A DNA stretch of 64,000 nucleotides from Cladocopium goreaui (taxonomy: Eukaryota; Sar; Dinophyceae; Suessiales; Symbiodiniaceae), in the NCBI GenBank assembly GCA_947184155.2, contig CAMXCT020001471.1:62328-126327 (forward strand), read 5' to 3'. The notes beneath the pieces are model-generated. The model had not been told where the DNA came from. It made no database searches and was given only the letters and a program-made list of their open reading frames with translations. Each line of letters starts with the position of its first letter. Position 1 is the first letter of the stretch. Shown here piece by piece: positions 8,246-64,000 of this stretch. The translations under genes and the position numbers were made by a program.

Positions 8246-8271
8246 CAGATTTTCTAGACCCAAAATCATTG

Positions 8272-14465: not shown

Positions 14466-14469
14466 AACT

Positions 14470-14985: not shown

Positions 14986-14989
14986 TACA

Positions 14990-19227: not shown

Positions 19228-19509
19228 ACAAACAATCTGAACCTGGAACCTTGGACCATCTGAAATTCATCCCCAACTTGTTTTCAGGTACAAAATGGTT
19301 CTTGGATCTACTAGATCGACTAGGCTGCAATGAATAACAACCGAAAGACGCCTGTTTTCCAGCTTCCACTTTCTCAATCCGAATTGCCTCAACTGCCTGG
19401 AGCAGAGGGGGCTTTGCAAGGATTCAGAAACATTTTCACACTGTGTTTTTAACATTTTCCCCAGAGATTGTGAATAAGTATCATGGAAATAATTTTCGAA
19501 CAGAAAAAT

Positions 19510-20161: not shown

Positions 20162-20356
20162 TCTTGGGACCGAGACGAAGGCTCCTCCACCGTGATCTGT
20201 GCAAACCACGTTTGGTTTGCAGCTGTGGTTCAGCTTTGAAGCAGGGACTGCAGCGGTGTCACCTGCGCAAAGGTCCTCAAGGACGAAGACACCGCTGCCT
20301 TTCCCTCCACAAGCAAGCACAGCCACTGCCATCCCCAGATCGACTGGCTGGTGCAA
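20162..20356 (-). CDS. SET-domain exon with NHSC motif
   Basis: After a TTTTTTTCAG acceptor, the frame reads through GGKGSGVFVLEDLCAGDTA and SKLNHSCKPNVVCTDHGG to FVSVPR. NHSC-x-P-N is the S-adenosylmethionine/knot motif of SET domains. However, normal SET domains have about 70-80 residues between the 'G-x-G-V-F' start and NHSC, and here there are about 20. The domain is therefore shortened or an exon has been lost, which argues for a fragment or a divergent SMYD-like protein. Histone methyltransferase activity should not be assumed. Confidence 0.55.
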
Positions 20357-21000: not shown

Positions 21001-21420
21001 TTTTGGATATAATTCTCGTGGTGAGGTAGGAGTACCATTGGTATAACTGATAGGGCCTAGTGGCCCTGGATTTTTTTTGGGCCAGACCCCCCGAATCCTA
21101 TCCAGGGACGCCCAACGGGGATCCATAACTCAGTGTCCACCTGGTTTAATTTAGCCAGTGCAAGGGATATAAAAAACAAATAAAGAAATAAAAAAGGTAA
21201 AGGAATATATGAACAAAACAAATACAATAAAAATCCGCCGACCCCGGCCTTCGCCAAGGCAGGGGTGGCGCCTGGGACCACCGGAGGTGTGGAACCTGCT
21301 TTGTCACGGCCATGGCCCTCACATTGTCCAAGGTCGTTCCAGCAACAATTGCTTGTCTGTGTTTAAGCGGTCTGCCAAGCCCCAAAGGCCTCAAACGCGA
21401 CGCGGCAGCTCCCAAAACCA
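21001..21420. other. No gene seen
   Basis: A mixed segment with a T-rich run near 21070 and A-rich runs near 21180-21230. No coding frame with protein-like composition is seen; it leads into the GC-rich minisatellite. Confidence 0.4.
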
Positions 21421-22160
21421 AACCCTCCCGCAGGCTTTTCCACGGCAACTCTCGCAGCTACACGCCCCAGCCATCTGTTTTTAAGGGCGTTCACGCCTGC
21501 CGTTTGCCCGCCCTCAAACCCTCCAAACCCTCCCGCAAGCCTTTCCACGGCAACTCTCTTAGCCACACGCCCCAGCCATCTCTTTTTAAGGGCGTTCAAG
21601 CCTGCCGTTTGCCCGCCCTCAAACCCTCCAAACCATCCAAATCCTCCAAACCCTCCCGCAAGCCTTTCCACGGTAACTCTCGCAGCCACGCCCCAGCCAT
21701 CTGTTTTTAAGGGCGTTCAAGCCCGCCCTCAAACCCTCCAAACCCTCCAAACCCTTCCGCAGGCCTGTCCACGACAACTCTCGCAGCCACACGCCCCAGC
21801 CATCTGTTTTTAAGAGCGTTCAAGCCTGCCGCTTGCCCGCCCTCAAACCCTCCAAACCCTCCAAACCCTCCAAACCCTTCCGCAGGCCTTTCCACGGCAA
21901 CTCTCGCAGCTACACGCTCCAAACCCTCCCGCAGGCCTTTCCACGGCAACTCTCGCAGCCACACGCCCCAGCTATCTGTTTTTAAGGGCGTTCAAGCCTG
22001 CCGTTTGCCCGCCCTCAAACCCTCCAAACCCTCCAAACCCTCCCGCAGGCCTTTCCACGGCAACTCTCTTAGCCACACGCCCCAGCCATCTGTTTTTAAG
22101 GGCGTTCAAGCCTGCCGTTTGCCCGCCCTCAAACCCTCCAAACCCTCCAAATCCTCCAAA
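21420..22160 (+). repeat. ~105-bp GC-rich minisatellite, block 1
   Basis: The tandem unit contains GCCTTTCCACGGCAACTCTC, GCAGCCACACGCCCCAGCCA, TCTGTTTTTAAGGGCGTTCA, AGCCTGCCGTTTGCCCGCCC and a variable run of CCCTCCAAA. Because unit length is often a multiple of three, both strands stay open for long stretches. Unit length varies through the number of CCCTCCAAA words. Confidence 0.9.
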
Positions 22161-22735
22161 CCATCCCCTTGTGGTGCACGCAGGTGGGGTAGGACCCCTG
22201 AGAAATATAATGAAATCATAGGTACCCAGGCTACCGAACCCAAATTGCAAAAATGAAAGCTGGGGGGTTCAACCCCACATGTTGCGCAAAGAGAAAATCA
22301 TCAGTCATCCAACTGAGGGATTTGCAAAATTAAATCAAGAGGTTCCAGAGATAGAATTAATAAGATTCCAAGTCAGCATCCACATGTTCCAGAAATAAAA
22401 AGAAAAGGTTCCAGGTCAGCATCTGTCTGTCTCAGTTTTCTCTCCCAATGCTGATGGCAGAGGGCAGTTTGTTTTCCCTGTGTTGGTGGCATGTCAAGTT
22501 TGGTAACAGGGTGAACTTTCAATTTTTTCCACAAAAAAGGTAAGCACAACACAAAAATAAAATCCAGAGGGACCCAACCTAAAGCTACTCCCATCTGCTT
22601 TTTGGACAGCACTTTTCATGACCCATGTCTAAAAAATGAAATCATAGGGATCTGATTTACTCAAAACTTATGATACACACCTTGAAAAATAAATCTAAAA
22701 ATAGTTCAGGGCCAAGCCCATTGATTTAATTTTTG
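22160..22735. other. Unique spacer between minisatellite blocks
   Basis: This is a unique segment with no convincing gene. It contains repeats of 'AGGTTCCAG(A/G)...' (22340-22410) and an A-rich tail. It may be an insertion into a once continuous array. Confidence 0.4.
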
Positions 22736-24525
22736 AGCACCTCCCCGTGCGCAAGCCTTTCCACGACAACTCTCGCAGCTACACGCTCCAAACCCTCCCG
22801 CAGGCCTTTCCACGGCAACTCTCGCAGCCACACGCCCCAGCCATCTGTTTTTAAGAGCGTTCAAGCCTGCCGTTTGCCCGCCCTCAAACCCCCAAACCCT
22901 CCAAACCCTCCCGCAGGCCTTTCCACGGCAACTCTCGCAGCTACACGCTCCAAACCCTCCCGCAAGCCTTTCCACGGCAGCTCTCGCAGCCACACGCCCC
23001 AGCCATCTGTTTTTAAGGGCGTTCAAGCCTGCCGTTTGCCCGCCCTCCAACCCTCCAAACCCTCCCGCAGGCCTTTCCACGGCAACTCTCGCAGCCACAC
23101 GCCCCAGCCATCTGTTTTTAAGGGCGTTCAAGCCTGCCGTTTGCCCGTCAAACCCTCCAAACCCTCCATGACCCTTCCGCAGGCCTTTCCACGGAAACTC
23201 TCGCAGCTACACGCTCCAAATGCCTTTCCACGGCAACTCTCGCAGCCACACGCCCCAGCCATCTGTTTTTAAGGGCGTTCAAGCCTGCCGTTTGCCCGCC
23301 CTCAAACCCTCCAAACCCTCCAAACCCTCCCGCAGGCCTTTCCACGGCAACTCTCGCAGCTACACGCTCCAAACCAACTCTTGCAGCCACACGCCCCAGC
23401 CATCTGTTTTTAAGAGCGTTCAAGCCTGCCGTTTGCCCGCCCTCAAACCTTCCAAACCCTCCCGCAGGCCTTTCCACGGCAACTCTCGCAGCTACACGCT
23501 CCAAACCCTCGCGCAAGCCTTTCCACGGCAACTCTCGCAGCCACACACACCAGCCATCTGTTTTTAAGGGCGTTCAAGCCTGCAGTTTGCCCGCCCTCAA
23601 ACCCCGCAGGCCTTTCCACGGCAACTCTCGCAGCCACACGCCCCAGCCATCTGTTTTTAAGGGCGTTCAAGCTTGCCGTTTGCCCGCCCTCAAACCCTCC
23701 AAACCCTCCCGCAGGCCTTTCCACGGCAACTCTCGCAGCCACACGCCCCAGCCATCTGTTTTTAAGAGCGTTCAAGCCTGCCTTTTGCCCGCCCTCCAAC
23801 CCTCCAAACCCTCCCGCAGGCCTTTCCACGGCAGCTCTCGCAGCCACACGCCCCAGCCATCTGTTTTTAAGGGCGTTCAAGCCTGCCCTTTGCCCGCCCT
23901 CAAAGCCTGCAAACCCTCCAAACCCTTCCGCAAACCTTTCCACGGCAACTCTCGCAGCCACACGCCCCAGCCATCTGTTTTTAAGGGCGTTCAAGCCTGC
24001 CGTTTGCCCGCCCTCAAACCCTCCAAACCCTCCTCCAAGCCCTTCCGCACGCCTTTCCACGGCAACTCTCGCAGCCACACGCCCCAGCCATCTGTTTGCC
24101 CGCCAAAGCCTCCCGCAGGCCTTTCCACGGCAACTCTCGCAGCTATTACACGCTCCAAACCCTTCCGCAGGCCTTTCCACGGCAACTCTCGCAGCCACAC
24201 GCCGCAGCCACCTGTTTTTAAGAGCGTTCAAGCCTGCCGTTTGCACGCCCTCAAACCCTCCAAAACCTCCCGCAGGCCTTTCCACGGCAACTCTCGCAGC
24301 TACACGCTCCAAACCCTCCCGCAGGCCTTTCCACGGCAACTCTCGCAGCCACGCCCCAGCCATCTGTTTTTAAGAGCGTTCAACCCTGCCGTTTGCCCGC
24401 CCTCAAACCTTCCAAACCCTCCAAGCCCTCCAAACCCTCCCGCAGGCCTTTCCACGGCAACTCTCGCAGCTACACGCCCCAGGCATCTGTTTTTCAGGGC
24501 GTTCACGCCTGCCGTTTGCCCTTGA
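22735..24525 (+). repeat. ~105-bp GC-rich minisatellite, block 2
   Basis: The same unit as block 1, with about 17-20 copies. A shorter variant lacks the middle section and joins TCGCAGCTACACGCTCC to CCCGCAGG. Both strands show frames of more than 300 codons (plus 23587-24525; minus 24363-23443), which follows from unit length and base composition. Coding is not supported: frames break wherever the CCCTCCAAA count changes. Confidence 0.9.
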
Positions 24526-33002: not shown

Positions 33003-34190
33003 AAATGATGAAGGGTGGTGCGCGACTGAGACTTGACCTTGATGAAGGGTGGTGTGAGACTTTACACTACATAACAATACATCACAAAAGGATTGACCTT
33101 GATGAAGGGTGGTGTGAGACTTTACATTACATAACAATACATCACAAAAGAATTGACCTTGATGAAAGGGTGGTGTGAGACTTTTCACTACATAGCAATA
33201 CATTACAAAAGGATTGACCTTGATGAAGGGTGGTGTGAGACTTTACATTACATAACAATACATCACAAAAGGATTGACCTTGATGAAGGGTGGTGTGAGA
33301 CTTTACATTACATAACGATACATCACAAAAGGATTGACCTTGATGACGGGTGGTGTGAGACTTTACACTACATAACAATACATCACAAAAGGGTTGACCT
33401 TGATGAAGGGTGGTGTGAGACTTTACATTACATAACAATACATCACAAAAGAATTGACCTTGATGAAAGGGTGGTGTGAGACTTTTCACTACATAGCAAT
33501 ACATTACAAAAGGATTGACCTTGATGAAGGGTGGTGTGAGACTTTACATTACATAACAATACATCACAAAAGGATTGACCTTGATGAAGGGTGGTGTGAG
33601 ACTTTACATTACATAACAATACATCACAAAAGGATTGACCTTGATGACGGGTGGTGTGAGACTCTACATTACATAACAATAAATCACAAAAGGATTGACC
33701 TTGATGAAGGGTGGTGTGAGACTTTACATTACATAACAATACATCACAAAAGAATTGACCTTGATGAAGGGTGGTGTGAGACTTTACACTACATAACAAT
33801 ACATCACAAAAGGATTGACCTTGATGAAGGGTGGTGTGAGACTTTACATTACATAACAATACATCACAAAAGAATTGACCTTGATGAAGGGTGGTGTGAG
33901 ACTTTACATTACATAACAATACATCACGAAAGAATTGACCTTGATGAAGGGTGGTGTAAGACTTTACGCTACATAACAATACATCACAAAAGGATTGACC
34001 TTGATGAAGGGTGGTGTGAGACTTTACATTACATAACAATACATCACAAAAGAATTGACCTTGATGAAAGGGTGGTGTGAGACTTTACATTACATAACAA
34101 TACATCACAAAAGGATTGACCTTGATGAAGGGTGGTGTGAGACTTTAAATTACATAACAATACATCACAAAAGGATTGACAATGAAGTGG
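33003..34190 (+). repeat. 60-bp minisatellite, about 19 copies
   Basis: The unit contains GGATTGACCTTGATGAAGGG, TGGTGTGAGACTTTACATTA and CATAACAATACATCACAAAA. At 60 bases it encodes 20-residue repeats (RIDLDEGWCETLHYITIHHK) on the plus strand and stays open on the minus strand too. Copies with one extra G (GAAAGGGTGG) sit at about 33165, 33466 and 34067, and 33149-33210 recurs almost exactly at 33450-33511, giving a ~301-bp higher-order period. The extra base breaks the frame, so a protein is unlikely. Confidence 0.95.
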
Positions 34191-35545
34191 TGGGGAAAGG
34201 AAGTGGTGAGGAAGGGAAGTGGTTGCGCTGTGAGCTGCATGAATGTTGCATGGGCTTTGTGTTGGGGAGGAAGCCGGAGCACGAAACCTTGTGTTTTTCC
34301 GTGTAACGTGGCTGCAGCCGGCGATGAAAGGTACCTCGTCTGTGCGGCGGTTGCGGCTGCGGTCGTTTCTGTCGCGAATTGTTCCTCCTATGTGTTTTGN
34401 NNNNNNNNNNNNNNNNNNNNNNNNNNNNNNNNNNNNNNNNNNNNNNNNNNNNNNNNNNNNNNNNNNNNNNNNNNNNNNNNNNNNNNNNNNNNNNNNNNNG
34501 CCACGTCCGTAGATAGGTGCAGGTTTGCTACGGGATGCTGCGAAACGCAGTGTAATGGCTGCATGAATGTTGCATAGGCTATGTTGTGGGGAGGAAGCCG
34601 GAGCACGAAACCTTGTGTTTTTCCGTGTAAAGTGGCTGCAGCCGGCGATGAAAGGTACCTCGTCTGTGCGGCGGTGCGGCTGCGGTCTTTTCTGTCGCGA
34701 ATTGTTCCTCCTATGTGTTTTGCAACGAGTGGTTGTTCCTGTGTGCGTAGTTCTATGCGTTTCTTGAAGCTGTGGTGGCAGATCGCATTGGAATGGCTGC
34801 ATGATTGTTGTCATTTGGTGTTGCCACGTCCGTAGATAGGTGCAGGTTTGCTACGGGATGCTGCGAAACGCAATGTAATGGCTGCATGAATGTTGCATGG
34901 GCTATGTTGTGGGGAGGAAGCCGGAGCACGAAACCTTGCGTTTTTCCGTGTAAAGTGGCTGCAGCCGGCGATGAAAGGTACCTCGTCTGTGCGGCGGGTG
35001 CGGCTGCGGTCTTTTCTGTCGCGAATTGTTCCCCCTATGTGTTTTGCAATGCAACTAGTGTTTTTTTCCTGTGTGTGCGTAGTTCTATGCGTTTCCTTTC
35101 TTGAAGCTTGGTGGCAGATCGCTTGGAATGGCTGCATGATTGTTGTCATTTGGTGTTGCCACGTTCGTAGATAGGTGCAGGTTTGCTGCGGGATGCTGCG
35201 AACCGCAGTGTAATGGCCGCATGAATGTTGCATGGGCTATGTTGTGGGGAGGAAGCCGGAGCACGAAACCTTGTGTTTTTCCGTGTAAAGTGGCTGCAGC
35301 CGACGATGAAAGGTACCTCGTCTGTGCGGCGGTTGCGGCTGCGGTCGTTTCTGTCGCGAATTGTTCCTCCTATGTGTTTTGCAACAAGTGGTTGTTCCTG
35401 TGTGCGTAGTTCTATGCGTTTCTTGAAGCTGTGGTGGCAGATCGCATTGGAATGGCTGCATGATTGTTGTCATTTGGTGTTGCCGCGTCCGTAGATAGGT
35501 GCAGGTTTGCTACGGGATGCTGCGAAACGCATTGTAGTGGCTGCG
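34190..35545 (+). repeat. ~330-bp tandem repeat, about 4 copies (one with a gap)
   Basis: Units share GCATGAATGTTGCATGGGCT, GAGGAAGCCGGAGCACGAAA, GCAGCCGGCGATGAAAGGTA, GTCGCGAATTGTTCC and GTAGATAGGTGCAGGTTTGC. Starts lie near 34238, 34562, 34886 and 35221. The first copy contains the assembly gap. Confidence 0.9.
34400..34499. other. Assembly gap (100 N)
   Basis: Exactly 100 N, a conventional unknown-size gap inside a tandem array; the copy number here is therefore not reliable. Confidence 1.
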
Positions 35546-37055: not shown

Positions 37056-38758
37056 GTGTGTGTGTGTGACAAAGTTGTATGGGAAAGATGGTGTGTGTGA
37101 CAAAGTTGTGTGTGAAAGAGAGCGTGTGACAAAGTTGTGTGTGAAAGATGGTGTGTGACAAAGTGGTGTGTGAAAGATGGTGTGGCGAAAGATGGTGGGT
37201 GACAAAGTGGTGTGTGAAAGATGGTGTGGTGAAAGATGGTGTGTGACAAAGTTGTGTGTGAAAGGTGGTGTGGTGAAAGATGGTGTGTGACAAAGTGGTG
37301 TGTGAAGGATGGTGTGGTGAAAGAAGGGGGTGTGTCAAAGATGGTGTGTGACAAAGTTGGGCGTGAAAGATGGTGTGTCAAAGATGGCGTGGCGAAAGAT
37401 GGTGGGTGACAAAGTGGTGTGTGAAAGATGGTGTGGTGAAAGCTGGTGTGTGACAAAGTTGTGTGTGAAAGATGGTGTGGTGAAAGATGGTGGGTGACAA
37501 AGTGGTGTGTGAAGGTTGGTGTGGTGAAAGATGGTGTGTGACAAAGTTGGGCGTGAAAGATGGTGGGTGACAAAGTGGTGTGTGAAAGATGGTGTGGTGA
37601 AAGCTGGTGTGTGACAAAGATGTGTGTGAAAGATGGTGTGGTGAAAGATGGTGGGTGACAAAGTGGTGTGTGAAGGTTGGTGTGGTGAAAGATGGTGTGT
37701 GACAAAGTTGGGCGTGAAAGATGGTGTGTGAAAGAGGGGGTGTGTCAAAGATGGTGTGTGAAAGATGGTGGGTGACAAAGTGGTGTGTGAAAGATGGTGT
37801 GTGAAAGATGGTGGGTGACAAAGTGGTGTGTGAAAGATGGTGTGGTGAAAGCTGGTGTGTGACAAAGTTGTGTGTGAAAGATGGTGTGGTGAAAGATGGT
37901 GGGTGACAAAGTGGTGTGTGAAGGTTGGTGTGGTGAAAGATGGTGTGTGACAAAGTTGGGCGTGAAAGATGGTGTGTGAAAGAGGGGGTGTGTCAAAGAT
38001 GGTGTGTGAAAGATGGTGTGTGACAAAGTGGTGTGTCAAAGATGGTGTGTGAAAGATGGTGGGTGACAAAGTGGTGTGTGAAAGATGGTGTGGTGAAAGC
38101 TGGTGTGTGACAAAGTTGTGTGTGAAAGATGGTGTGGTGAAAGATGGTGTGTGACAAAGTGGTGTGTGAAGGTTGGTGTGGTGAAAGATGGTGTGTGACA
38201 AAGTTGGGCGTGAAAGATGGTGTGTGAAAGAGGGGGTGTGTCAAAGATGGTGTGTGAAAGATGGTGGGTGACAAAGTGGTGTGTCAAAGATGGTGTGTGA
38301 AAGATGGTGGGTGACAAAGTGGTGTGTGAAAGATGGTGTGGTGAAAGCTGGTGTGTGACAAAGTTGTGTGTGAAAGATGGTGTGGTGAAAGATGGTGGGT
38401 GACAAAGTGGTGTGTGAAGGTTGGTGTGGTGAAAGATGGTGTGTGACAAAGTTGGGCGTGAAAGATGGTGTGTGAAAGAGGGGGTGTGTCAAAGATGGTG
38501 TGTGAAAGATGGTGGGTGACAAAGTGGTGTGTCAAAGATGGTGTGTGAAAGATGGTGGGTGACAAAGTGGTGTGTGAAAGATGGTGTGGTGAAAGCTGGT
38601 GTGTAACAAAGTTGTGTGTGAAAGATGGTGTGGTGAAAGAAGGGGGTGTGTCAAAGATGGTGTGCGAAAGATGTTGTGAAAGATGGTGTGTCAAAGATGG
38701 CGTGGCGAAAGATGGTGGGTGACAAAGTGGTGTGTGAAAGATGGTGGGTGACATCAGC
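37056..38758 (+). repeat. GTGTGTGAAAGATGGTG minisatellite with 248-bp higher-order period
   Basis: Short words (GTGACAAAGTGGTG, GTGAAAGATGGTG, GTGGTGAAAGCTGG) alternate. The pattern repeats at 248 bases: similar blocks start at 37745, 37993 and 38241. On the minus strand it stays open for up to 288 codons (HTIFHTPLCHPPS-like), an effect of composition and not a gene. Confidence 0.9.
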
Positions 38759-42984: not shown

Positions 42985-44450
42985 GAAATTTCTCTTGAAC
43001 TTTCCACGCGTACGTCATGCTACGCTACTGTAAGTTCTCCTGAGGTCTTGAACTTGCCATTCATGCGTCATGCTACGCTACTGTAAGTTCTCTTGAACTT
43101 TCCACTCATGCGTCATGCTACGCTACTGAAAGTTCTCTTGAGCTTTCCATGCGTATGCTACGCTACTGTAAGTACTCTTGAACTTTCCACTCATGCCTCA
43201 TGCTACGCTACTTTAAGTTCTCTTGAACTTTCCACGCATATGTCATGCTACGCTACTGAAAGTTCTCTTGAACTTTCCATGCGTACGTCATGCTACGCTA
43301 CTGTAAGTACTCTTGAACTTTCCACTCATGCCTCATGCTACGCTACTGTAAGTACTCTTGAACTTTCCATTCATGCGTCATGCTACGCTTGTAAGTTCTC
43401 TTGAAGTTTCCACTCATGCGTCATGCTACGCTACTGTAAGTTCTCTTGAGCTTTCCATTCGTGCCTAATGCCACGCTACTGAAAGTTCTCTTGAACTTTC
43501 CACGCCCATGTCATGCTATGCTACTGTAAGTTCTCTTGAACTTTCCACTCATGCGTCATGCTACGCTACTGTAAGTTCTCTTGAGCTTTCCATGCGTATG
43601 CTACGCTACTTTGAGTTCTCTTGAACTTTCCATTTATGCGTCATGCTAGGCTACTATAAGTTCTCTTGAAATTTCCATGCATATGTCATGCTACGCTACT
43701 GTAAGTTCTCTTGACCTTTCCATTTATGTGTCATGCTACGCTACTGTAAGTACTCTTGAACTTTCCATTCATGCGTCATGCTACGCTACTGTAAGTACTC
43801 TTGAACTTTCCATTCATGCGTCATGCTATACTGTAAGTTTTCTGGAACTTTCCACGCATATGTCATGCTACGCTACTGAAAGTTCTCTTGAACTTTCCAT
43901 GCGTACGTCATGCTACGCTACTGTAAGTACTCTTGAACTTTCCACTCATGCCTCATGCTACGCTACTTTAAGTTCTCTTGAACTTTCCACTCATGCGTCA
44001 TGCTAGGCTACTATAAGTTCTCTTGAACTTTCAATGCATATGTCATGCTGCGCTACTGTAAGTTCTCTTGAACTTTCCACGCCCATGTCATGCTATGCTA
44101 CTGTAAGTACTCTTGAGCTTTCCATTCATGTGTCATGCTACGCTACTGTAAGTACTCTTGAAGTCTCCATTCATGCGTCATGCTACGCTACTCTAAGTTT
44201 TCTGGAACTTTCCATGCATACGTCATGCTAGGCTACTGTAAGTTCTCTTGAACTCTCCATGCATACGTCATGCTACGCTACTGTAAGTTCTCTTGAACTT
44301 TCCATTCGTGCGTCATGCTACTCTACTGTAAGATCTCTTGAACTTTCCATGCATGCGTCATGCTACGCTTGTAAGTTCTCTTGAAGTTTCCACTTATGCG
44401 TCATGCTACGCTACTGTAGGTACTCTTGAACATTCCATTCGTGCGTCAAA
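42985..44450 (+). repeat. ~45-bp minisatellite, about 32 copies
   Basis: The unit contains CATGCTACGCTACTGTAAGT, TCTCTTGAACTTTCCA and (C/T)(T/G)CATGCGT. AAGTTC-TCTT-GAACTT can form a 6-bp hairpin, and TACTGTAAGT is splice-donor-like. Shortened copies occur (for example near 43150, 43600 and 43825). The plus strand stays open for over 100 codons in places because 45 is a multiple of three. Confidence 0.95.
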
Positions 44451-45728: not shown

Positions 45729-46808
45729 GATCCGGGCACTCAACGCCTTGCGCTGGCTCAACAACCAAGGGAAGTTGGGGTGGCCCCTGGACCGATTCAC
45801 GGCCCCCGAGCCGAAGGACAAGACCCAGCAGAAGCATCAGCAAGCTATAGTCCTTGAGCCCCCGATGTTGGCCCACTTGGAGGAGAAGATCGAGCGGTTG
45901 CAGCGGGTGAAGGATCCTGCCTGGATGGCGTTGTTGGGGTCGTGGTTGGTAGGTGCAGGATGGCTGAGGTACCGATCAGCGCACCCCGTAAGGTGACGCT
46001 CCACGCCTACTCTTGCCAGGGAAAGCAGGCGCAGAACAGGGAGGGGTTCTACTGGTGTGTGCCGTCCACCTTCACCACAGGCTGTTGAGGGTTGGCTGGA
46101 GAGGTACTCCAGCTTGGCTGAAGGGCAGAAAGCCTCATGCGGCCTGACCTTCGACGCCAATGGAGTGGCATTCAGCCTCAATGATGTGGCGAGGGCCACG
46201 CAGCATTACTTTCAGGGGCTTCGCGACTTGACTTCATATTCGTTTCGCCGTTTGGGCCCGACGCTGGGACACATGCTCCATCTGGAGCCAGAAGAACTCT
46301 CTTGGCGATGGGAGACTGGCAAGATCGCGGTGAGGTGGCAGCAGCGAAGGCGTCGATGCCTTTGCACTACAGCGCAGCGCGCTACACCCAGTCGCTGCGG
46401 ATCAAACATCGGATGCTTCTCCTGGTGAGCGAACTTACAACTTTTGAGGCTTGGGAGATGGTGCCAGAGGAAGTCTTGAAAGCCGCGGATGCCAATAAGG
46501 CAGTGGCAAGAGACCGGCATGTGGTTTGGTCATCTCCAGTGACAGAGGAGGAAGCTCAGACGAGATTCAACCTGTCAGAGGAACTGACCGCCAGTGCGGC
46601 TGCCCGTAGAGCCAAAGGGCCAGCACAGGGCGAAGAAGCTATGCCGGCTCAGCTCAAGAATTTCCTCAAGAATGGAGCGCGCCTCTGTGCCGCCTTCAAC
46701 GTCCATGAGTGTCAGTTGGGCGAGGATGCGTGAGGCAACAAGCATCTTTGTGCGGTGGTTTTGCAGACAGGCCGAGCTTGCGGCGGTCGACATCCGGCAT
46801 CAACATGT
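45729..46808 (+). pseudogene. Tyrosine-recombinase-like pseudogene, 3' part
   Basis: From the acceptor the sense reads IRALNALRWLNNQGKLGWPL, then EEKIERLQRVKDPAWMALLG; this frame stops at 45996. It resumes in another frame with SCGLTFDANGVAFSLNDVAR and LTSYSFRRLGPTLGHMLHLE, where YSFRR probably carries the box-II Arg. A shift near 46295 leads to GDWQDRGEVAAAKASMPLHY then SAARYTQSLRIKHRML, with the candidate nucleophile Tyr. After a stop at 46734, the end HLCAVVLQTGRACGGRHPAS completes a Cys/His-rich tail with LCAAFNVHECQ. The 6.97-kb transposon starts directly after this tail. Family assignment is pattern-based. Confidence 0.65.
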
Positions 46809-46845
46809 CCCTGAGCATCGGATATTGATTACAATCAAGAAACTT
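46809..46845 (+). repeat. Left terminal inverted repeat
   Basis: It begins CCCTGAGCATCGGATATTGA and continues TTACAATCAAGAAACTT. Paired with 53746-53782. Confidence 0.9.
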
Positions 46846-47038
46846 CCTATTTTTCTAATTGATTTTGATTCAATTGATTTTTTTAGTTTTGAATCAATTG
46901 ATTTTTGTATTGATTTTTTTTTTGATTTGGGATATTGATTTTGGGGGTTGAAACTTTTGATCCTTTTTTTTGGTGGCTGCCAGCTGTTTTGGCTCTCAGC
47001 TGTTGGAAAAAAGATTTAGAAAAAATAGGTAACTCCTG
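46846..47038. other. Left subterminal region
   Basis: T-rich, with repeated (A)ATTGATTTT words and short inverted repeats (GATTCAATTGATT, GAATCAATTGATT). A similar region lies at 53580-53745, a plausible place for transposase binding. Confidence 0.5.
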
Positions 47039-47105
47039 CCTTGAAAAAGGCTTGTGCCTTGAAAAAGGAGACTGCCTTGAAAAAGGAGAGTGCCTTGAAG
47101 AAGGC

Positions 47106-48129
47106 ATGGCTGGCAAAGGGGGTGCCAGACATTTCAGCAAACCTCTGATAGACCAGGGGTTGCTGTACCAAGTCTTTGCTGAACACAAGGACTTGGTATT
47201 TAATTTGAAAGGGTATGAATTGTTGTCGAGAAATTCTGCCCACAACCCCTTAGCCATGCATCAAGTTTTGCCCCTCATTGATGCTTTGGTAGACTTGGAA
47301 AGTTCAGCTGAAATTCATGCCCAGACAATGAGATCAGCTTTGCTGCATCTCATTACTAGGGAGCCTGAGCTGAATACCAGCGACTACAATGGTAGTGTCT
47401 TTGTAAATCTGAGAGCTGACAGGATTTCAGTGGTACTGCACCATGTCAGAAGGCTGGCAAGGGCAAAGACAATGCCCAGCAGTGTCATTGGTAGCCTGAC
47501 AGCTACTCAATTTAAAGAGCTCAACAAGACCTTGAAAAAGGTGGTGTTGAGAGATGTGCCCCAGGAAGATGCCTTGAAAAAGGATGAGGGCCAGAAAGCT
47601 GGAAGCAGTAAAGACACCTTGAAAAAGGTGCCCCAGGGAAATGCCTTGAAAAAGGATGATGGCCAGAAAGCTGGAAGCAAAGAGACCTTGAAAAAAGTAA
47701 GCACAGAGAAAAAGAACACATCCTTGAAAAAGGTAAAGAAGGAAATTTTGAAGAAAAAAGAGAGAACCTTGAAAAAGGGCGACAGCCCCTTGAAAAAGGA
47801 AGCTGTAGAAAATGCCATAGTGCCAAAGGGAAGGTCATTAAAGGCCAGAGTGAGTGATGTCTCCCTGGACTCTGATGGCTTCCCCAAGGTTTTGGCCAGC
47901 CCACAGAAAGGGGCAAGCCCACCAAGGTTGTGGAAGAAAAAGAGGGGCAACTTTCAGCCACAAGCTTCTGCAGAAGTGCATGGTGGTTTGAAAGATGCCA
48001 TGGGTGTCTTGAAAAAGCCATCTGCCAAACAGGCCTCCTTGAAAAAGGAAAAGTCTAAAAAACCAGCCTTGAAAAAGGTTGCTAAGAATGAAGCCTTGAA
48101 AAAGGTTGAAGCCACAGAGAGAAAGCCTT
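47106..48129 (+). CDS. Transposon ORF1, Lys-rich, C-terminus lost in gap
   Basis: The frame starts at the first ATG after four hairpin words (MAGKGGARHFSKPLIDQG). It is open for 341 codons to the assembly gap at 48130. The frame is also open upstream to 46935, but without an ATG. Residues 1-140 look globular (LLYQVFAEHKDLVFNLKGYE, then DYNGSVFVNLRADRISVVLH). From about residue 145 the protein is a Lys-rich, low-complexity tail built around LKK from hairpin words (TLKKV, ALKKD, SLKKE). No family is named. It could be a nucleic-acid-binding accessory protein of the transposon. The end is unknown. Confidence 0.6.
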
Positions 48130-48229
48130 NNNNNNNNNNNNNNNNNNNNNNNNNNNNNNNNNNNNNNNNNNNNNNNNNNNNNNNNNNNNNNNNNNNNNNN
48201 NNNNNNNNNNNNNNNNNNNNNNNNNNNNN
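48130..48229. other. Assembly gap (100 N)
   Basis: Exactly 100 N inside ORF1; true length is unknown. Confidence 1.
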
Positions 48230-48545
48230 ATTAATACAGTAAATATAATGTAAGTATTTAAATTTATTTATTTAGATTTTTGAAACTATATTTATTTATA
48301 TTTTTTGAATATATATTTTTAAAAAACTATATAATTATATATAGTTTCAAATATTTTTCTTAAAGTATTTAGTTATATTTTTTGAATATATTAAAGAACA
48401 AATATATAAAGAAAATTATTTAATAATTAAGAACTATAATAAGGGTTTAGGGTTTTAGGGTTCAGGGATAAGAATACCTTTTAAAGTAAACATACATGTA
48501 TATATCTATATTTGTTTTAAAAAAAACTATCTTTCAATAAAAAAA
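48230..48545. other. AT-rich segment between ORF1 and ORF2
   Basis: A/T-rich with ATATATTT words. A telomere-like phrase GGGTTTAGGGTTTTAGGGTT occurs at 48443-48462, only about three units. No gene. Confidence 0.5.
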
Positions 48546-49065
48546 ATTGAACTCCACAGTTGAAGTTTTTTTTTTTGAAAGGGCCTACCTTCACTGAACT
48601 CTCCAGTTCAAATTTCTGTGTTGGAAGGACCCAAATTCACTCAACCCCCCAGTTTTTTTTGAAAGGACCCAACTTCACTTCACTGAACTCCCCAGTTGAA
48701 GTTTTTTTTTGGAAGGACTTCACTTCACTGAACTCCCCAGTTCAAAATTTCATTTGGAAGTACTTCACTTCACTGAACTCCCCAGTTGAAGTTTTTTTGG
48801 AAGTACTTCACTTCACTGAACTCCCCAGTTGAAGTTTTTTTGGAATGATTTCACTTCACTGAACTCCCCAGTTGAAGTTTTTTTGGAATGATTTCACTTT
48901 ACTGAACTCCCCAGTTGAAGTTTTTTTGGAATGATTTCACTCAACTGAACTCCCCAGTTTAAAGTTTTATTTGGAAGGGCTCCACTCCACTAAACTCCCC
49001 AGCTCCATTTTTTTGGAAGGACTTCACTCCACTGAACTCTCCAGTTCAAGTTTTGTTTAGACAGT
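48546..49065 (+). repeat. ~40-bp repeat built on ACTGAACTCCCCAGTT
   Basis: About 12 copies of a 35-60-base unit: CTTCACTGAACTCCCCAGTT followed by GAAG and a T run, then TGGAAG. AACT-CCCC-AGTT, or TGAACT-CCCC-AGTTCA in the best copies, is a hairpin with a C-rich loop. Spacing varies. Confidence 0.85.
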
Positions 49066-49210
49066 TTCAAGACCAATGGCCTTTCAGATTGATAGTTTTT
49101 ATTTTTTGAGAACACAGTTCAAAAATTCAAACTCTGTCTTCTCCCTTTATGAATGAACTTCTCTTGGATGAATTATTTTATTTAAACATTTTTTTATTTA
49201 AAAAAAAAAA

Positions 49211-49333
49211 CGCAAAAAATGAAAAGTGATGAAAAGTGATGAAAAGTGATGAAAAGTGATGAAATCATCACTTTTCATCACTTTTCACTTTTCATCACTT
49301 TTCATCACTTTTCATCACTTTTCATTTTTTGTG
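49211..49333. repeat. Long palindrome of ATGAAAAGTG units
   Basis: Four direct GAAAAGTGAT units are followed, after the centre GATGAAATCATC, by about five inverted ATCACTTTTC units. The outer arms CAAAAAATGAAAAGTG and CACTTTTCATTTTTTG also pair. Arms of about 50-60 bases could extrude a cruciform. One inverted unit is shortened. Confidence 0.9.
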
Positions 49334-50059
49334 ATTTTTGGATTCCAAATAGTTTTGGTTGTCAAAAAAATGAAATTTGAATGATTTCTTTGGTAATAAA
49401 AATATTCCCTAAAACATTTTTCTTGATAATAAACATAAAAGTTTTTGGAAATAAATTGTTTTGAAATATATATATATATAAATATTTTTAAAAAACCATG
49501 AAACAAATTCACAAAAACACAAATATATATATAAGAATTATAAAACATATTTTGTGAAAATATATGATATTGTTTTTTTATTGTTTTGTTTTGTAAATAA
49601 ATTGAAAAATAAAATATACAATTATACAATTATTATTGAAAAATATTATATATTAGAGGTATTAAACAATGTGAAAATTTAGAATATGGTTTACTTATTG
49701 TTTTGGTTTGTAAATTAATTGAAAAATAAAATAAAAAAAATATATATTCAATCAAACATGAATATGCCCTCTGAAAATTATTATTTTAATGTATATATAT
49801 TTTTTTGATTTTCAAAATATTTTTTAATTAAAAAATTTGGCATGAATATGTAAAATGTATTTGGGAACAAAATATGAAAACACCGACACAAATCTATGAA
49901 ATAGATATAACATAAAAATGAAACATTAAAACAAAATGAAATCTTAAATGATTATAAAAACATAGATTATATAAATTGTTCCACAAAACCGATATACATG
50001 TCTGCCTCTGTAGCTGTTTTGGATTTGTCAGTTGTAGTTTCAGTAGCAAACCTTATAGG
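49334..50059. other. AT-rich segment upstream of ORF2
   Basis: A/T-rich with no coding frame. It ends with a CCTTATAG/GATGAAG junction, a possible acceptor just before the ORF2 ATG. Confidence 0.45.
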
Positions 50060-51202
50060 ATGAAGAGGCCAGCTATGGCAATGAAAGCCTTGAAAAAGGT
50101 CAAGCAGAAAGGATCCTTGAAAAAGGACCAGGAAGGATCCTTGAAAAAGGACCAGACACTGAATAAGGGCAACTTGAAAAAGTTGGGGGAGCTCAGCCTG
50201 AAGGATAAAATCCTGAAGGCAGCTGAAGAGCACCCAGATAATGAGGAGACCCAAGCCCTGGTGCTTCAGGAATCCATGTCACCTGTTGACAAAAGCAATG
50301 CATGGAACCAGCACCAAGTCCACTTGAAAAAGAAGGGCAATGAATCCTTGAAAAAGGAGTTCGATGAGATGGACAAGAAGGGCAAGGGGCTGAGCACTGC
50401 TTTGTTCTTGCTGAAGAAGAACAAAAGCTTGTTTGCCAGTGTCTCCAAGGGTGTCAGCCAGGAAGTCTCCTTGAAAAAGAGAGAGAAATGGCTGACCCAG
50501 AAGGAAGTGGATGCCAAGTGGACTGATCAGGAACTTGAAGTCCACTTGGCATCAGGTCGGCTGATCTACAGAGAAGCTGGCCACAATGTCTGGGAATACC
50601 AGGACACCCAGGACATTGAGAAGACTGTTGCAGGTAAGAGGTCCCTGCAATACCAGTTTGGGCAGGAGTATGAGCTGGAGGAAGGGGATGAGGCAGAGTG
50701 GTGCAAAATGTTGGAAAAGGATTTGCACAGCATTTTGCTGGGAGGCCTTGAAAAAGGCAAAGGCTCTGCCAAGGGCTCTGGCCTTGAGAAAGGCAAAGGC
50801 AAAGGTAAAGCCAGGGCCAAGCCCAAGCCCCAGCCCCTTGAGGATGCTGATGAGGAGTCTATGGACCTGGCAACTGCCTTGAAAAAGGCAAAGAAGACCA
50901 GGGACATGCTCACCAGCACCTCCAGCAACTTTGAGGAAGCCTTGAAAAAGGTGGAAAAGAGCCCTTACCTGAGCAAGCAATCCTTCAAGGACAAGCAAGG
51001 TGTTCTGGATGGCCTCCATGAAATGGTGAAGAAAACCAAAAAACTCCTCGGGAGGGGAGGGAAGGACAAAGTGGAGGTTCTGAAGGAGCACATCCTGGAG
51101 GCATGTGCTTGCATGAAGGATGCCAAGGAGGAAGCCAAAGAGCTTGTACAGATTAGCTTTAAAGCTGTGAGCAAGGCTGCTTCCTCCAAGGCCAAGAAAT
51201 GA
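50060..51202 (+). CDS. Transposon ORF2, Lys-rich protein of a dinoflagellate family
   Basis: The ATG at 50060 (MKRPAMAMKALKKVKQKG) is chosen because the frame upstream lacks protein character; 380 residues end at TGA. After a Lys-rich start comes LSLKDKILKAAEEHPDN, then SNAWNQHQVHLKKKGNE, FDEMDKKGKGLSTALFLLKK, then WLTQKEVDAKWTDQELEVHL with SGRLIYREAGHNVWEYQDTQ. I recognise this block order from proteins common in Symbiodiniaceae genomes, usually unnamed. The C-terminal third is Lys/Glu-rich, with coiled-coil character (KVEVLKEHILEACACMKDAK). Hairpin words supply the LKK and LEKG strings. It is co-oriented with ORF3 370 bases downstream; a DNA- or RNA-binding partner of the transposase is plausible. 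Confidence 0.65.
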   Translation: MKRPAMAMKALKKVKQKGSLKKDQEGSLKKDQTLNKGNLKKLGELSLKDKILKAAEEHPDNEETQALVLQESMSPVDKSNAWNQHQVHLKKKGNESLKKEFDEMDKKGKGLSTALFLLKKNKSLFASVSKGVSQEVSLKKREKWLTQKEVDAKWTDQELEVHLASGRLIYREAGHNVWEYQDTQDIEKTVAGKRSLQYQFGQEYELEEGDEAEWCKMLEKDLHSILLGGLEKGKGSAKGSGLEKGKGKGKARAKPKPQPLEDADEESMDLATALKKAKKTRDMLTSTSSNFEEALKKVEKSPYLSKQSFKDKQGVLDGLHEMVKKTKKLLGRGGKDKVEVLKEHILEACACMKDAKEEAKELVQISFKAVSKAASSKAKK

Positions 51203-51571
51203 TCCTTGAAAAAGGATCTAAGTCCTGGGACACCTTGAAAAAGGTATCTACATCCTTGAAAAAGGTTAATTCAGCCTGTAGAATAGCTGTGCTTTTGAAG
51301 CTTGTGGAAAAGCTGGTTTTTGAAAGGCAGTGAAAATCTGTCGATCATGAATCTACCGTATGAGGCAAAGACAACAGTTGGAAGCTGCCCTGCATGAGTG
51401 GGGTTTAAGGCCACAGGGAAGCATTGCATGTCAGTGGTAGCTTTGTTTTGGCTCAAACAGTAGAGAAAAAAATAGGAAATTTTGTTTTTCACCCCTGCAC
51501 CTTGAAAAAGGTTTGTCATACACCCCTTGAAAAAGGAGCTTTGACACACCCCTTGAAAAAGGAGGTTTGCA
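51203..51571 (+). other. Spacer with six hairpin words before ORF3
   Basis: Three words follow the ORF2 stop at once (51204, 51233, 51254), and three lie just before the ORF3 ATG (51500, 51525, 51551; spacing 25-26 bases). The remainder is unique. Words here are non-coding, which shows that they are kept independently of protein. Confidence 0.75.
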
Positions 51572-53416
51572 ATGGCCAAGAGACTCAGGGGCTTTCACCT
51601 TGAAAAAGCCTTGCAAGTCCCAAAGAAGGTGCCTAAAAAGACAGTTGGTAGTGCATTGGCTACTGCTTTACTGTCTTTGTGGTGCCATGGCAAAGTGTCA
51701 GGTACTACCATGAGGTGGCTGGCTGAGAGTGCACTTCTGGATGGGGCACAGCATGATGAGCTTGTCAAAATTGCAAAATGTGGTTCCCATGGGCTTCACC
51801 CTGGTAACATACACAGGGATCTCATGGCAACCTTTTGCAAAGGCTTGGACATGCCAACCCCCTTTGAACTTGAAAAAGTTCCATGCAAAAACCCCAAGAC
51901 CTTGAAAAAGGATGGGGACACAGCTGCCATGCTGCTGCCTCACCAGATGTTTGCCAAGCTTTTCACCTATAATGCCTTTGAAGTCATTTTCCCACTTGAA
52001 AAAGTGGAATCCTTTTGGAACCAAGCCCTTGAAAAAGGTGATGACAGGTTCAAAAACCACCCAGCCCTGGATGGCAGGATGTGGAAAAAAACTACACTAC
52101 CTCTGTTCTTGCATGGAGATGGTGTAGAATACCAGACTAGAGATAGTTTGATGATCTACTCTTCGGGGAGCCTGTTGCAACAAATGTCAAGCTTGTCTTC
52201 ACATTTTTACATTGCATCCTTCCCCAAGAGCTGCACTGTGCCAGAGACATGGGACACCATGCAAGAATGGATCTGTTGGTCATTTGCAGCACTGCAAAAT
52301 GGCTACCATCCATCTCATGATCCCTGGGGAAAACCTTTGAAAAAAGATTCCCCTTTTTTCCTTGAGAAAGGAAAACCTCTGGCAAAAGGACTTAAGGGTG
52401 TCCTTTGGTCCATACAGGGGGACCATGAGTTTTTCTCAAACTCCCTGAAGTTACCACATTGGGCCAGCAAGAGCCCCTGTTGGGAATGCTCTTGCAGCAA
52501 AACCCTTGAAAAAGGGAAAAACATGTGGTACAAAACCCTTGAAAAAGGGAAGCAAGGCTGGAAAGTTTCATCCCATGAGGAGTGCTTGAAAAAGCCTAAA
52601 AGCACACATGCTTTGTTCTCTGGGGTGATTCCAGGCTTGAGCACCAAAATGGTGAGGGGTGATTGCCTCCACATTTTGTTTTGCAAAGGTGTGCTGGGCC
52701 ACCTTCTGGGATCTATCATTCACTATTTTCTTTATTATGATGGTGTTGGTGTTGCCCAGAAAGTGCCCCCTGAAAAGAGGCTAGGTACAATTTTTGAAGC
52801 TGTACAGAAAGAGTATGTCTTGAAAAAGATATCTCAAAGGGTGACAAACCTTCGACTCAGCATGGTTTGCAACCCCAAAGAGCCTCATAAGACCTTTGCT
52901 CAATTAGATTTGAAAGGCTCAGAAACCAAATGGTTTCTCCAAGCTTTTGCCCCAGTTCTGGCAGAGCTTGTGTCTCTTGAAAAAGAGCATGAAGCAGCCA
53001 TGCTGGATGCTGTGAATGACATGGCAGCTCTCATTCATTTGTTTGATGAAGCTGATGTCTTCTTGACAAATGATGAGTGGCTACAGGCCATGGAGCTGGG
53101 AGACAGCTTTTCCACCCACTACAGCCATCTCTCAGGCTGGGCCCTTGAAAAAGGGAGAACCTTGTTTAACATTGTGATGAAACATCACACATTCCAACAC
53201 TTGCTTGAGAATGCAAAGTTTTTAAATCCAAAAACCCACTGGACATTTAGTTCAGAGGATTTTGTTGGAAAAATGAGCATTCTCACAGCAAGTGTTAGTC
53301 CTGGGGTTAGCTCCACAAGGTTGAGCCTTAAGGTAGCTCCTAAATACAGGATCTTGTTTCACTTCTTGCTGACCAGAGAAGGGATGCAGGAAGCTGGTAT
53401 GAACATTGATCCTTGA
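51572..53416 (+). CDS. Transposon ORF3, transposase-like protein
   Basis: The 614-codon frame starts MAKRLRGFHLEKALQ and is intact. Candidate catalytic and structural blocks in order are LPLFLHGDGVEYQTRDSL (Asp183), WSIQGDHEFF (Asp284), a zinc-knuckle-like SPCWECSC (303-308), RGDCLHILFCKGVLGHLLGS (Asp364, His367), SETKWFLQAF (Glu451), then KHHTFQHLLENAKFLNPKTH and SEDFVGKMSILTAS near the end. Asp-rich strands with a Cys insertion suggest a DDE/D RNase H-fold transposase; the terminal inverted repeats support that. I recognise the C-terminal 'F-L-N-P-K ... E-D-F-x-G-K' block from many dinoflagellate proteins. Hairpin words encode LEKG/LEKV/LEKE or LKK. The stop TGA lies inside a hairpin word (CCT TGA AAAAGG). 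Confidence 0.7.
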   Translation: MAKRLRGFHLEKALQVPKKVPKKTVGSALATALLSLWCHGKVSGTTMRWLAESALLDGAQHDELVKIAKCGSHGLHPGNIHRDLMATFCKGLDMPTPFELEKVPCKNPKTLKKDGDTAAMLLPHQMFAKLFTYNAFEVIFPLEKVESFWNQALEKGDDRFKNHPALDGRMWKKTTLPLFLHGDGVEYQTRDSLMIYSSGSLLQQMSSLSSHFYIASFPKSCTVPETWDTMQEWICWSFAALQNGYHPSHDPWGKPLKKDSPFFLEKGKPLAKGLKGVLWSIQGDHEFFSNSLKLPHWASKSPCWECSCSKTLEKGKNMWYKTLEKGKQGWKVSSHEECLKKPKSTHALFSGVIPGLSTKMVRGDCLHILFCKGVLGHLLGSIIHYFLYYDGVGVAQKVPPEKRLGTIFEAVQKEYVLKKISQRVTNLRLSMVCNPKEPHKTFAQLDLKGSETKWFLQAFAPVLAELVSLEKEHEAAMLDAVNDMAALIHLFDEADVFLTNDEWLQAMELGDSFSTHYSHLSGWALEKGRTLFNIVMKHHTFQHLLENAKFLNPKTHWTFSSEDFVGKMSILTASVSPGVSSTRLSLKVAPKYRILFHFLLTREGMQEAGMNIDP

Positions 53417-53745
53417 AAAAGGACACAGCTACATCCAGAACCTTGAGAAAGGATCACCCAAAACCTTGAGAAAGGATATCAGCAAGACCCAACACCTTGA
53501 AAAAGGTCATGCATGTGTACATAGTATGCTGATGCTACAAGAAAAAATGCTGCTGCAGCAGGGAGATCTGGAAGTTGGGATAATGGATTTTGTATTGATT
53601 TTTTGATTTTTTTATTGTTTTTTTTTGCTTTTTTTGGTGATCTGATATTGATTTTTGAATGGAAACTTTGGCCTCCACAGATTGATTTTTTTTTGGAGAA
53701 ATCAATTCAGAAATATTGATTTTTTATACAAATCAAAACTCTCAA
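53417..53745 (+). other. 3' region and right subterminal region of the transposon
   Basis: Four hairpin words (53411, 53441, 53464, 53495) lie within 100 bases after the ORF3 stop, then T-rich sequence with ATTGATTTTT words before the right terminal repeat. Confidence 0.6.
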
Positions 53746-53782
53746 AAGTTTATTGATTGTAATCAATATCCGATGCTCAGGG
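53746..53782 (-). repeat. Right terminal inverted repeat
   Basis: Inverted copy of 46809-46845 with one difference. The flank TACCATGATG follows at 53783. Confidence 0.9.
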
Positions 53783-53805
53783 TACCATGATGCTTCGACC
53801 TCAGA

Positions 53806-62175: not shown

Positions 62176-62886
62176 CCAATCCTCCAATCACTTCACTCAC
62201 ACACACACATCACTTACACACACACACACACATCCCACTCCCACCATCCTCCCACACTCACTCGCTCACTCCCTCCCTCCCTCACTCACTCACTCACTCA
62301 CTCACGCACTCACTCGCTCGCTCACTCACTCACTCACTCACCCACTCACTCTCACCCTCCCTCCCTCCCTCCCCTCCCTCTTCCCTACCACCAACTCACT
62401 AACTCACTTCACCCAACCTACCAACCCACTTCACTCTCACTCTCACTCTAACTCTCACGTTCATCAACTATCACCTCTCACTCGCACTCTCAACTACTTC
62501 ACTCTCACTCTTCGCTACTCTTCACTCACTCTCACTCACTCTCAACACTCGGAACTCAACTCTCACTCTCCACTCTCATCACTCACTCTCACTCAACATC
62601 TCACTCTCACCTCTAACCTCTCAATCCACTCTCACTCTGCACTCACTCTCACTAACTTCACTAACTCTCACTCACTCTCACTCACTTCACCTTCACTCTA
62701 CTCTCACTCACTCACTTCCACTCTCACTCTACTCACTCACTCTCACTCACACTCACTCACTCTCACACTCACTCACTCACTCACTCACTCACTCACTCAC
62801 TCACTCACTCACTCACTCACTCACTCACTCACTCACTCACTCACTCACCGCCCACACACACACACACCCACACACCCACCCACCCA

Positions 62887-62918
<32 letters not shown>

Positions 62919-63441
62919 CTCACTCACTCACTCACTCTCACACTCACTCACTCACTCACTCACTCACACACTCACTCTCACTCTCACACTCACNNNNNNN
63001 NNNNNNNNNNNNNNNNNNNNNNNNNNNNNNNNNNNNNNNNNNNNNNNNNNNNNNNNNNNNNNNNNNNNNNNNNNNNNNNNNNNNNNNNNNNNNTCACACA
63101 CTCACTCACACACTCACTCACACACTCACTCACACACTCACTCACACACTCACTCACACACTCACACACTCACTCACACACTCACTCACACACTCACTCA
63201 CACTCTCACTCACACACTCACTCACACACTCACTCACACACTCACTCACTCACTCACTCACTCACACACTCACTCACACACTCACTCACACACTCACTCA
63301 CACACTCACTCACACACTCACTCACACACTCACTCACACACTCACTCACACACTCACTCACACTCTCACTCACACTCTCACTCACACTCACACTCACACT
63401 CACTCACACTCACTCACTCTCACTCACTCACTCACTCACTC
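62176..63441. repeat. TCAC/CACA simple-repeat tract
   Basis: About 1.25 kb of CTCACTCACTCA and CACACACTCACT runs broken by the assembly gap. Confidence 0.95.
62994..63093. other. Assembly gap (100 N)
   Basis: Exactly 100 N inside a simple repeat. Confidence 1.
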
Positions 63442-63447
63442 AGTCAG

Positions 63448-64000
63448 GTGCGGCACTTGGTGCTCTGCAAGGGGTCGGATGTACGCCCTGGCGTCCCTTG
63501 GTCTCCACCGGTCGGCCGGTGGCTTTTGCGTGGCAGGTCGGATGTACGCCCTGGCGTCCCTTGGTCTCCGCCGGTCTGCCGGTGGCTTTTGCGTGGCTTG
63601 GTGCTCTGCAAGCGGTCAGATGTACGCCCTGGCGTCCCTTGGTGCGGCACTTAGTGCTCTGCAAGGGGTCGGATGTACGCCCTGGCGTCCCTTGGTCTCC
63701 GCCGCTCTGCCGGTGGCTTTTGAGTGGCAGGTGCGGCGCTTGATGCTCTGCAAGCGGTCAGATGTACGCCCTGGCGTCCCTTGGTCTCCGCCGGTCTGCC
63801 GGTGGCTTTTGCGTGGCAGGTGCGGCACTTGGTGCTCTGCAAGGGGTCGGTATGCCCTGGCGTCCCTTGGTCTCCGCCGCTCTGCCGGTGGCTTTTGCGT
63901 GGCAGGTGCGGCACTTGGTGCTCTGCAAGGGGTCGGATGTACGCCCGGGCGTCCGTTGGTCTCCGCCGGTCTGCCGGACGCCCTGGGCGTCCCTTGGTCT
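63448..64000 (+). repeat. GC-rich tandem repeat with TTTGCGTGGCAGG
   Basis: Units contain TGCGGCACTTGGTGCTCTGC, AAGGGGTCGGATGTACGCCC, TGGCGTCCCTTGGTCTCCGC, CGGTCTGCCGGTGGCTTTTG and CGTGGCAGG. About six copies with lengths of 75-117 bases; some lack the TGCGGCACTTGG part. It runs off the right edge. Confidence 0.9.

Follow-up and report, generated by a model that had tools for sequence, protein, structure and literature searches.

Why is one short hairpin-forming word written dozens of times, always on the same strand, through the genes of a single mobile element? The question is raised by a 64,000-nucleotide stretch of the dinoflagellate Cladocopium goreaui (GenBank assembly GCA_947184155.2, contig CAMXCT020001471.1, forward-strand positions 62,328 to 126,327), which we call the window and number from its first letter. 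It contains an element of 6974 bp, bounded by terminal inverted repeats and carrying three plus-strand open reading frames (ORF1, ORF2 and ORF3), in and around which stand about 50 near-identical hairpin words, variants included. The initial annotation of this sequence had recognised some 33 plus-strand copies of the word CCTTGAAAAAGG and none outside the element. Exact search bears this out: 33 copies lie between 47039 and 53506, all on the plus strand, with 0 elsewhere in the window, and 100 dinucleotide shuffles give a mean of 0.04 and a largest count of 1. The shorter core CTTGARAAAG occurs 48 times in the window, on the plus strand throughout; 47 of these cores are inside the element, and the sole core outside it, at 18483, is part of another repeat. 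These counts support the word as specific, within the window, to this one element. When every 10-mer able to form a 3-bp Watson-Crick stem around a 4-nt loop is counted, CTTGAAAAAG has 26 plus-strand copies in distinct flanks, and the runner-up, leaving aside 10-mers of A and T only, has four.

Between 47030 and 53510, the 43 perfect cores are accompanied by six copies with one mismatch, against 0.3 expected in shuffled letters, and by eight with two mismatches, against 3.2. Four of the six one-mismatch copies of CTTGAAAAAG have a GAGA loop, in keeping with the earlier remark that the loop variants are almost all of this kind; one has GAAG and one breaks the C-G pair, which is broken in the word variant at 47686. 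The loop is thus almost confined to GAAA or GAGA. At 52335, one of the eight two-mismatch matches, the C-G pair is replaced by T-A, both sides having changed.

On the coding strand the hairpin unit reads N2 N1 C T T - G A R A - A A G N1' N2', that is, a loop and three closing pairs that are all near-invariant, followed outwards by two pairs that are free in sequence and strongly biased towards pairing. The first outer pair (-1/+1) is Watson-Crick in 43 of the 47 copies (permutation mean 31.3) and the second (-2/+2) in 24 (permutation mean 11.6), while the third is weak (17 vs 12.1, p 0.07) and the fourth no better than chance (10 vs 9.7). When 11 near-duplicates are taken out, the 36 copies with clearly different flanks show 32 and 20 paired, against 21.0 and 9.0 (p 2e-5 and 4e-5). 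All four Watson-Crick types are found at the second outer pair (AT 7, TA 7, GC 5, CG 5). Furthermore, the true register stands out among 25 left-right offsets, with z values of 5.9, 4.1 and, at the third pair, 1.6, the largest off-register value being 2.5 (left 4 with right 5). The covariation check proposed in the initial annotation was run on an alignment of the 47 copies and three variant words (50 rows, 49 distinct), and copies and flanks covary in register: the score over six pairs is 0.234, compared with 0.088 in shuffled alignments (0 of 500 as high) and 0.05-0.10 in slid registers. The extended stems noted previously are also present, reaching 7 bp at 51201-51218 and 8 bp within 52355-52375. 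The statement that variants keep pairing holds for six of the ten copies in which the C-G pair next to the core is changed, but not for those at 48008, 50323, 50470 and 51599, which are unpaired there.

Comparison with ordinary hairpins gives the scale of this bias. Outside the element, with tandem arrays masked, 646 hairpins of the same geometry are paired at the two outer positions in fractions of 0.33 and 0.27, and 90 other hairpins inside the element in fractions of 0.33 and 0.29; for the words, the values are 0.91 and 0.51 against the background of 0.33 and 0.27. In RNA folding with 100 nt of context, the mean pair probability is 0.63, falling to 0.43 when right flanks are swapped between sites, and 30 of the 47 copies exceed 0.5. 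We therefore regard the hairpin as very probably a constrained structure.

A large part of the words lies within protein-coding sequence, where the constraint can be set against the peptides. ORF1 (47106..48129; ATG at 47106, 341+ amino acids, running into a gap of 100 N) has a lysine-rich second half and 11 core words, plus the 47686 variant. The lysine-rich ORF2 (50060..51202, 380 amino acids) has 11 words, nine in the LKK frame and two in the LEK frame, and ORF3 (51572..53416, 614 amino acids) has 12, nine in the LEK frame and three in the LKK frame, plus the 52335 variant. Overall, the three ORFs contain 34 words in two frames, 23 of them read as LKK and 11 as LEK. A further 13 are non-coding, counting the word at 53411 and leaving aside the GAAG variant at 47093. 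They belong to four groups: four words before the ATG of gene 1 (47039..47104; starts at 47039, 47057, 47075 and, with the GAAG loop, 47093), three right after the ORF2 stop codon (51204..51265), three right before the ORF3 ATG (51500..51562), and four at or after the ORF3 stop (53411..53506; 53411, 53441 and 53464 with GAGA loops, and 53495). The third frame of the word contains a stop and is unused inside the ORFs, but it supplies the TGA stop of ORF3, inside the word at 53411. Synonymous-codon shuffling of each gene leaves a mean of 3.4 words and at most 10 in 2000 trials, compared with the 34 observed. Among the 27 LKK tripeptides, 23 are coded TTGAAAAAG, other xKK tripeptides numbering at most three each, and among the 12 LEK, nine are coded CTTGAAAAA and two CTTGAGAAA. 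All four flanking bases of LKK words, and two of the four in LEK words, fall at first or second codon positions; thus, the proteins follow the hairpin. In ORF3 the residue after LEK tracks pairing in exactly the eight of nine cases that had been claimed, the exception being 51599. The earlier contention that base pairing overrides the amino acid agrees with covariation, synonymous shuffling and the non-coding copies alike, and these results support base pairing, not the peptide, as the conserved property.

The placement of the words provides additional clues on the form in which they act. In front of each gene stands a motif similar to the spliced leader of dinoflagellates, GTAGC..TTTTGGCTCAA (sequence as given in the accessible text of PMC6616646 and PMC12014239), and in the accessible part of PMC12014239 leader relics at the 5' end are described as tagging dinoflagellate genes that have passed through mRNA. 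Leaders were scored by local alignment to the spliced leader, with 4496 windows of 100 nt as background. The plus-strand leader of gene 1, AGCTGTTTTGGCTC (46982..46995), scores 20, reached by 0.98% of background windows; that of gene 2, GTAGCTGTTTTGG (50010..50022), scores 18, for which the fraction lies between 0.98% (score 20) and 8.9% (score 16); and that of gene 3, GTAGCTTTGTTTTGGCTCAA (51437..51456), scores 23, reached by 0.09%. In the 100 nt upstream of each gene's first word, one 8-mer, TGTTTTGG, is common to all three, and any common 8-mer is found in 67 of 20000 random window triplets. Every one of the 47 cores has such a leader upstream and lies inside or beside an ORF. By exact search the core is absent from 48230-50055, from 51266-51499 and from the element ends, the boundaries between genes and spacer having been drawn with the word positions already seen. 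The words are placed in three presumed mRNAs, each after a spliced-leader-like leader.

The orientation of the words follows the genes in 47 of 47 cases. Because they are on the sense strand and placed within presumed mRNAs, RNA is favored over DNA, and a loop of the GNRA kind also favors RNA. We infer that RNA is the acting form, that a protein reads it and that the reading serves a purpose. We see about an even chance that the word is a sense-strand RNA hairpin with a specific reader, acting in many copies as a tag by which the mRNAs of a DNA transposon of the terminal inverted repeat type are recognized. The reader might be encoded by the element, as the lysine-rich product of ORF1 or ORF2, or by the host. 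It would recognize the GNRA-type loop together with the C-G, U-A and U-A closing pairs, while the lower stem would be needed merely as a stem, its sequence being free. Many sites on each mRNA could allow multivalent binding and so mark the transcripts of the element as its own; such marking may serve stability, export, translation control or particle assembly with the proteins of the element. Coding sequence would have been bent to fit, LKK and LEK representing the two readings that keep the word open.

Several observations weigh against this proposal. The first outer pair is missing in four of the 47 copies and a Watson-Crick second outer pair in 23 (17 unpaired when G-U is counted), 17 copies are not above 0.5 in folding probability, and RNAalifold, given the same 50-row alignment, predicts the inner four pairs only. 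At the second pair, G-U is not enriched (GT 5 vs 4.5 expected, TG 1 vs 1.6); enrichment would favor RNA over DNA, and its lack is neutral or speaks against RNA. As the copies are repeats within one molecule, with 11 near-duplicates among the 47, they are not entirely independent. Chance could account for the compensated word at 52335, given that 3.2 two-mismatch matches are expected, and three of the eight such matches are paired variants inside the spacer, namely the A-T variants ATTGAAAAAT at 49601, 49635 and 49718, which the AT-richness of the spacer may explain. Words are also unevenly spread, 47105-47529 and 50952-51203, both intragenic, holding none. Regarding the leaders, the likeness is weak on the scale of the window: other positions score as high or higher, and a score of 26 is attained at some point of the window by three of 21 shuffled spliced-leader decoys. 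TGTTTTGG, too, is not confined to the leaders, with a copy in the spacer (49699) and one on the minus strand (20121).

How do other explanations fare against the same data? A repeated protein motif, LKK or LEKG, written with biased codons might be expected in lysine-rich products such as those of ORF1 and ORF2, and LKK is indeed far more frequent than any other xKK tripeptide (27 vs at most 3). Nevertheless, the use of two frames, the word acting as the ORF3 stop, the 34 words where synonymous shuffling leaves 3.4, the 13 non-coding words and the covariation led us to reject a peptide motif, which is scarcely credible. Template switching at imperfect palindromes is a known process that makes flanks complementary, and neutral sharpening of this kind in replication could have produced paired flanks. 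It might account for the excess at the first outer pair among the 646 background hairpins (0.33 against about 0.25 expected, z 4.6). This excess is, however, far below the 0.91 and 0.51 of the words, and one repeated core with fixed loop and strand would be left unexplained; neutral sharpening was accordingly rejected as the main cause, a role in which it is highly improbable.

The initial annotation had also suggested a tiny self-spreading palindrome, a 12-base unit that copies itself to new places and, its length being a multiple of three, keeps the reading frame. Near-identical copies in large number, with flanks that clearly differ in 36 of the 47, are what such a unit would leave, and local tandem duplications with periods of 18, 24, 26 and 72 carry words. 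In contrast, neither the other 57 kb of the window nor the element's own spacer contains the 12-mer, it has one orientation only, bases outside it covary too, the second outer pair being shared about evenly among the four Watson-Crick types, and the C-G pair within it is swapped for another pair in six of ten cases. The suggestion is less well supported by these results, and we consider it unlikely. A hairpin or oriented site acting in DNA, whether single-stranded DNA read by the transposase or a mark for replication or recombination, would suit a second outer pair enriched for Watson-Crick pairs and not for G-T, as well as inverted repeats that mark the element as a DNA transposon. Yet exact words are missing from the ends and the spacer, where transposase sites would be expected, the ends have ATTGATTTT repeats of their own that are absent from the middle, all 47 words are oriented with the genes, and a double-stranded dimer site should not, we reason, make free flanks covary; a DNA-level role seems improbable to us. 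The words could instead be another kind of RNA signal read by the host, in splicing, trans-splicing, exon marking or protection from RNA silencing. Their position in presumed mature mRNAs, the clusters at gene ends and leaders that look like spliced-leader relics are compatible with this option, which is nonetheless doubtful: ORF2 and ORF3 are readable without any intron and need none, and linear splicing enhancers do not usually show a pairing constraint.

Known systems offer partial parallels to a protein-read tag. The boxB hairpin of phage lambda, bound by N, has a stem of about 5 bp and a GNRA-like loop, with sequence-specific loop and closing pairs, and protein-bound hairpins of this type combine a loop and closing pairs that do not vary with a lower stem that is paired but free in sequence. 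However, the boxB loop has five bases and its copies are few, whereas the words of the element have a four-base loop closed by U-A and number about 50. Rickettsia palindromic elements are short palindromic units found inside genes, in frame and genome-wide; they are longer and widely spread, unlike the present words, which in the window are confined to one element and have covarying flanks. Viral packaging signals are degenerate, while the words are almost identical, are carried by a DNA transposon and have no known coat protein or particle. The element nevertheless shares with such signals many common-motif hairpins across coding and non-coding parts: in single-stranded RNA viruses such as phage MS2, dispersed packaging signals are, in the accessible text of PMC6281560 and PMC4751978, many sites with a common feature for one protein, and multivalent binding has been proposed for them in that of PMC6281560. 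The guide RNA scaffold of Cas9 has a hairpin with the same core, ACTTGAAAAAGT in the sequence quoted in the consulted portion of PMC6189203, but as a single copy in an unrelated system, and we take the likeness as chance. Dinoflagellate introner elements also place hairpin-forming repeats in genes (PMC7789003, as far as its accessible text goes), yet introners are introns, while the words are in and beside open reading frames. Finally, the 3' ends of LINE and SINE RNAs have a stem-loop that, according to the portions consulted of PMC5135761 and PMC6510757, may be recognized by the element's enzyme; that is one terminal stem-loop of a retrotransposon RNA, in contrast to about 50 across three genes of a DNA element.

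Is the arrangement found elsewhere? In the viral_contigs collection, three cores close together gave 0 matches, as did the terminal repeat, and two 12-mers close together gave two, judged chance: a 21-base repeat (L001) and terminator-like stems (L002). No relatives of ORF3, ORF2 or the N-terminal part of ORF1 were found in viral_contigs, no protein search of genome_contigs having been made; one of these searches returned 11 pattern matches, none confirmed, and a degenerate LPHW-PCW pattern matched once (L003), over 13 residues only. In genome_contigs, at least 115 stretches have three cores close together. Among the 118 loci scanned, the best 40 strand-rows, ranked by distinct flanks, are for the most part arrays whose period is constant or almost so, with at most nine copies and eight flank patterns, rows beyond them having at most three distinct flanks, and by eye none of the 40 combines many dispersed copies with covarying flanks. 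Six prokaryote loci (L005, L039, L065, L070, L090 and L112) repeat CTTGARAAAG mostly every 32-33 bases, with flanks often near AAAACTCC and TGTA, TGCA or TTGC. Two others (L022, in Moorena bouillonii, and L114) are 34-base arrays with CCCC-CTTGARAAAG-GGGG stems. Rfam 15 has no match to the window at gathering score; in 46800-53800 there are 30 matches with E up to 10, all below gathering, the strongest on an inverted repeat at 49.2-49.3 kb. A generic scan for sigma-70 promoters and terminators gave nothing informative, and by titles and the starts of abstracts no report of such words was met among the literature matches listed.

Regarding the element itself, the initial annotation had correctly described it as bounded by terminal repeats. 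The left terminal inverted repeat (46809..46845, plus strand) and the right one (53746..53782, minus strand) are 37 nt long and match at 36 of 37 positions (97%); apart from the right end, the first 22 nt of the left end have no match in the window with three or fewer mismatches. Subterminal regions follow on the left (46846..46990, plus strand) and right (53570..53745, plus strand), with five copies of ATTGATTTT in 46809-46990 and four in 53570-53782, against 0 in the element middle and two in the rest of the window; these repeats are perhaps DNA sites for the transposase. CACTA/Plavaka-like transposons likewise have terminal inverted repeats and subterminal short repeats. They also have a short target-site duplication, whereas none is visible by eye beside the ends here (flanks ...AACATGT / TACCATG...), and we assign the element to no superfamily. 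ORF1 and ORF2 have only sub-threshold family matches in Pfam, NCBIfam and PHROGs. ORF3 has no match in these or in PDB sequences, and so no DDE transposase domain match; since no family match is above threshold, it can be called only a presumed transposase. Searched by sequence against solved structures, ORF2 gave two weak matches and ORF3 none.

Between genes 1 and 2, the AT-rich spacer (48230..50055), which has no exact core, contains 43-bp tandem repeats (48568-49055), in most of whose units a small hairpin can be read, for instance AACT-CCCC-AGTT or TGAACT-CTCC-AGTTCA. It also has an inverted repeat of 55 nt (49205-49339), 96% complementary and made of TGAAAAGTGA units, with matches to microRNA precursor models that stay under the cut-offs. 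Three runs of precisely 100 N, at 48130-48229, where ORF1 is broken, 34400-34499 and 62994-63093, are likely scaffold gaps. Elsewhere in the window, 7497-20200 holds long repeats of some 250-400 bp, dispersed as well as tandem, that contain the words TGAATTTCAT and TTTCATCCCA, and large tandem arrays occupy 21418-24422, 33033-34180, 37062-38753, 43046-44448 and 62188-63977, with units that include 105, 60, 44/248, 45, 4, 12 and 89 bp.

What would a multi-copy tag of this kind mean? Going further than the RNA hairpin and its reader, a DNA transposon might tag every mRNA it makes, allowing a protein encoded by the element to gather or pick out these transcripts, a multivalent RNA identity code; we put this forward tentatively, being more inclined to doubt than to accept it. 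A code of this sort in DNA transposons was not met among the literature matches listed. Self-RNA marking is known for RNA viruses and retroelements and, to our knowledge, not for DNA transposons. If the proposal is true, a DNA element would be able to tell its own RNA from that of its host. It would also represent a natural case in which the structure of a nucleic acid dictates the protein sequence of three genes at once, with amino-acid choice paying the price, and the RNA and its protein would form a pair of possible use as a tagging tool.

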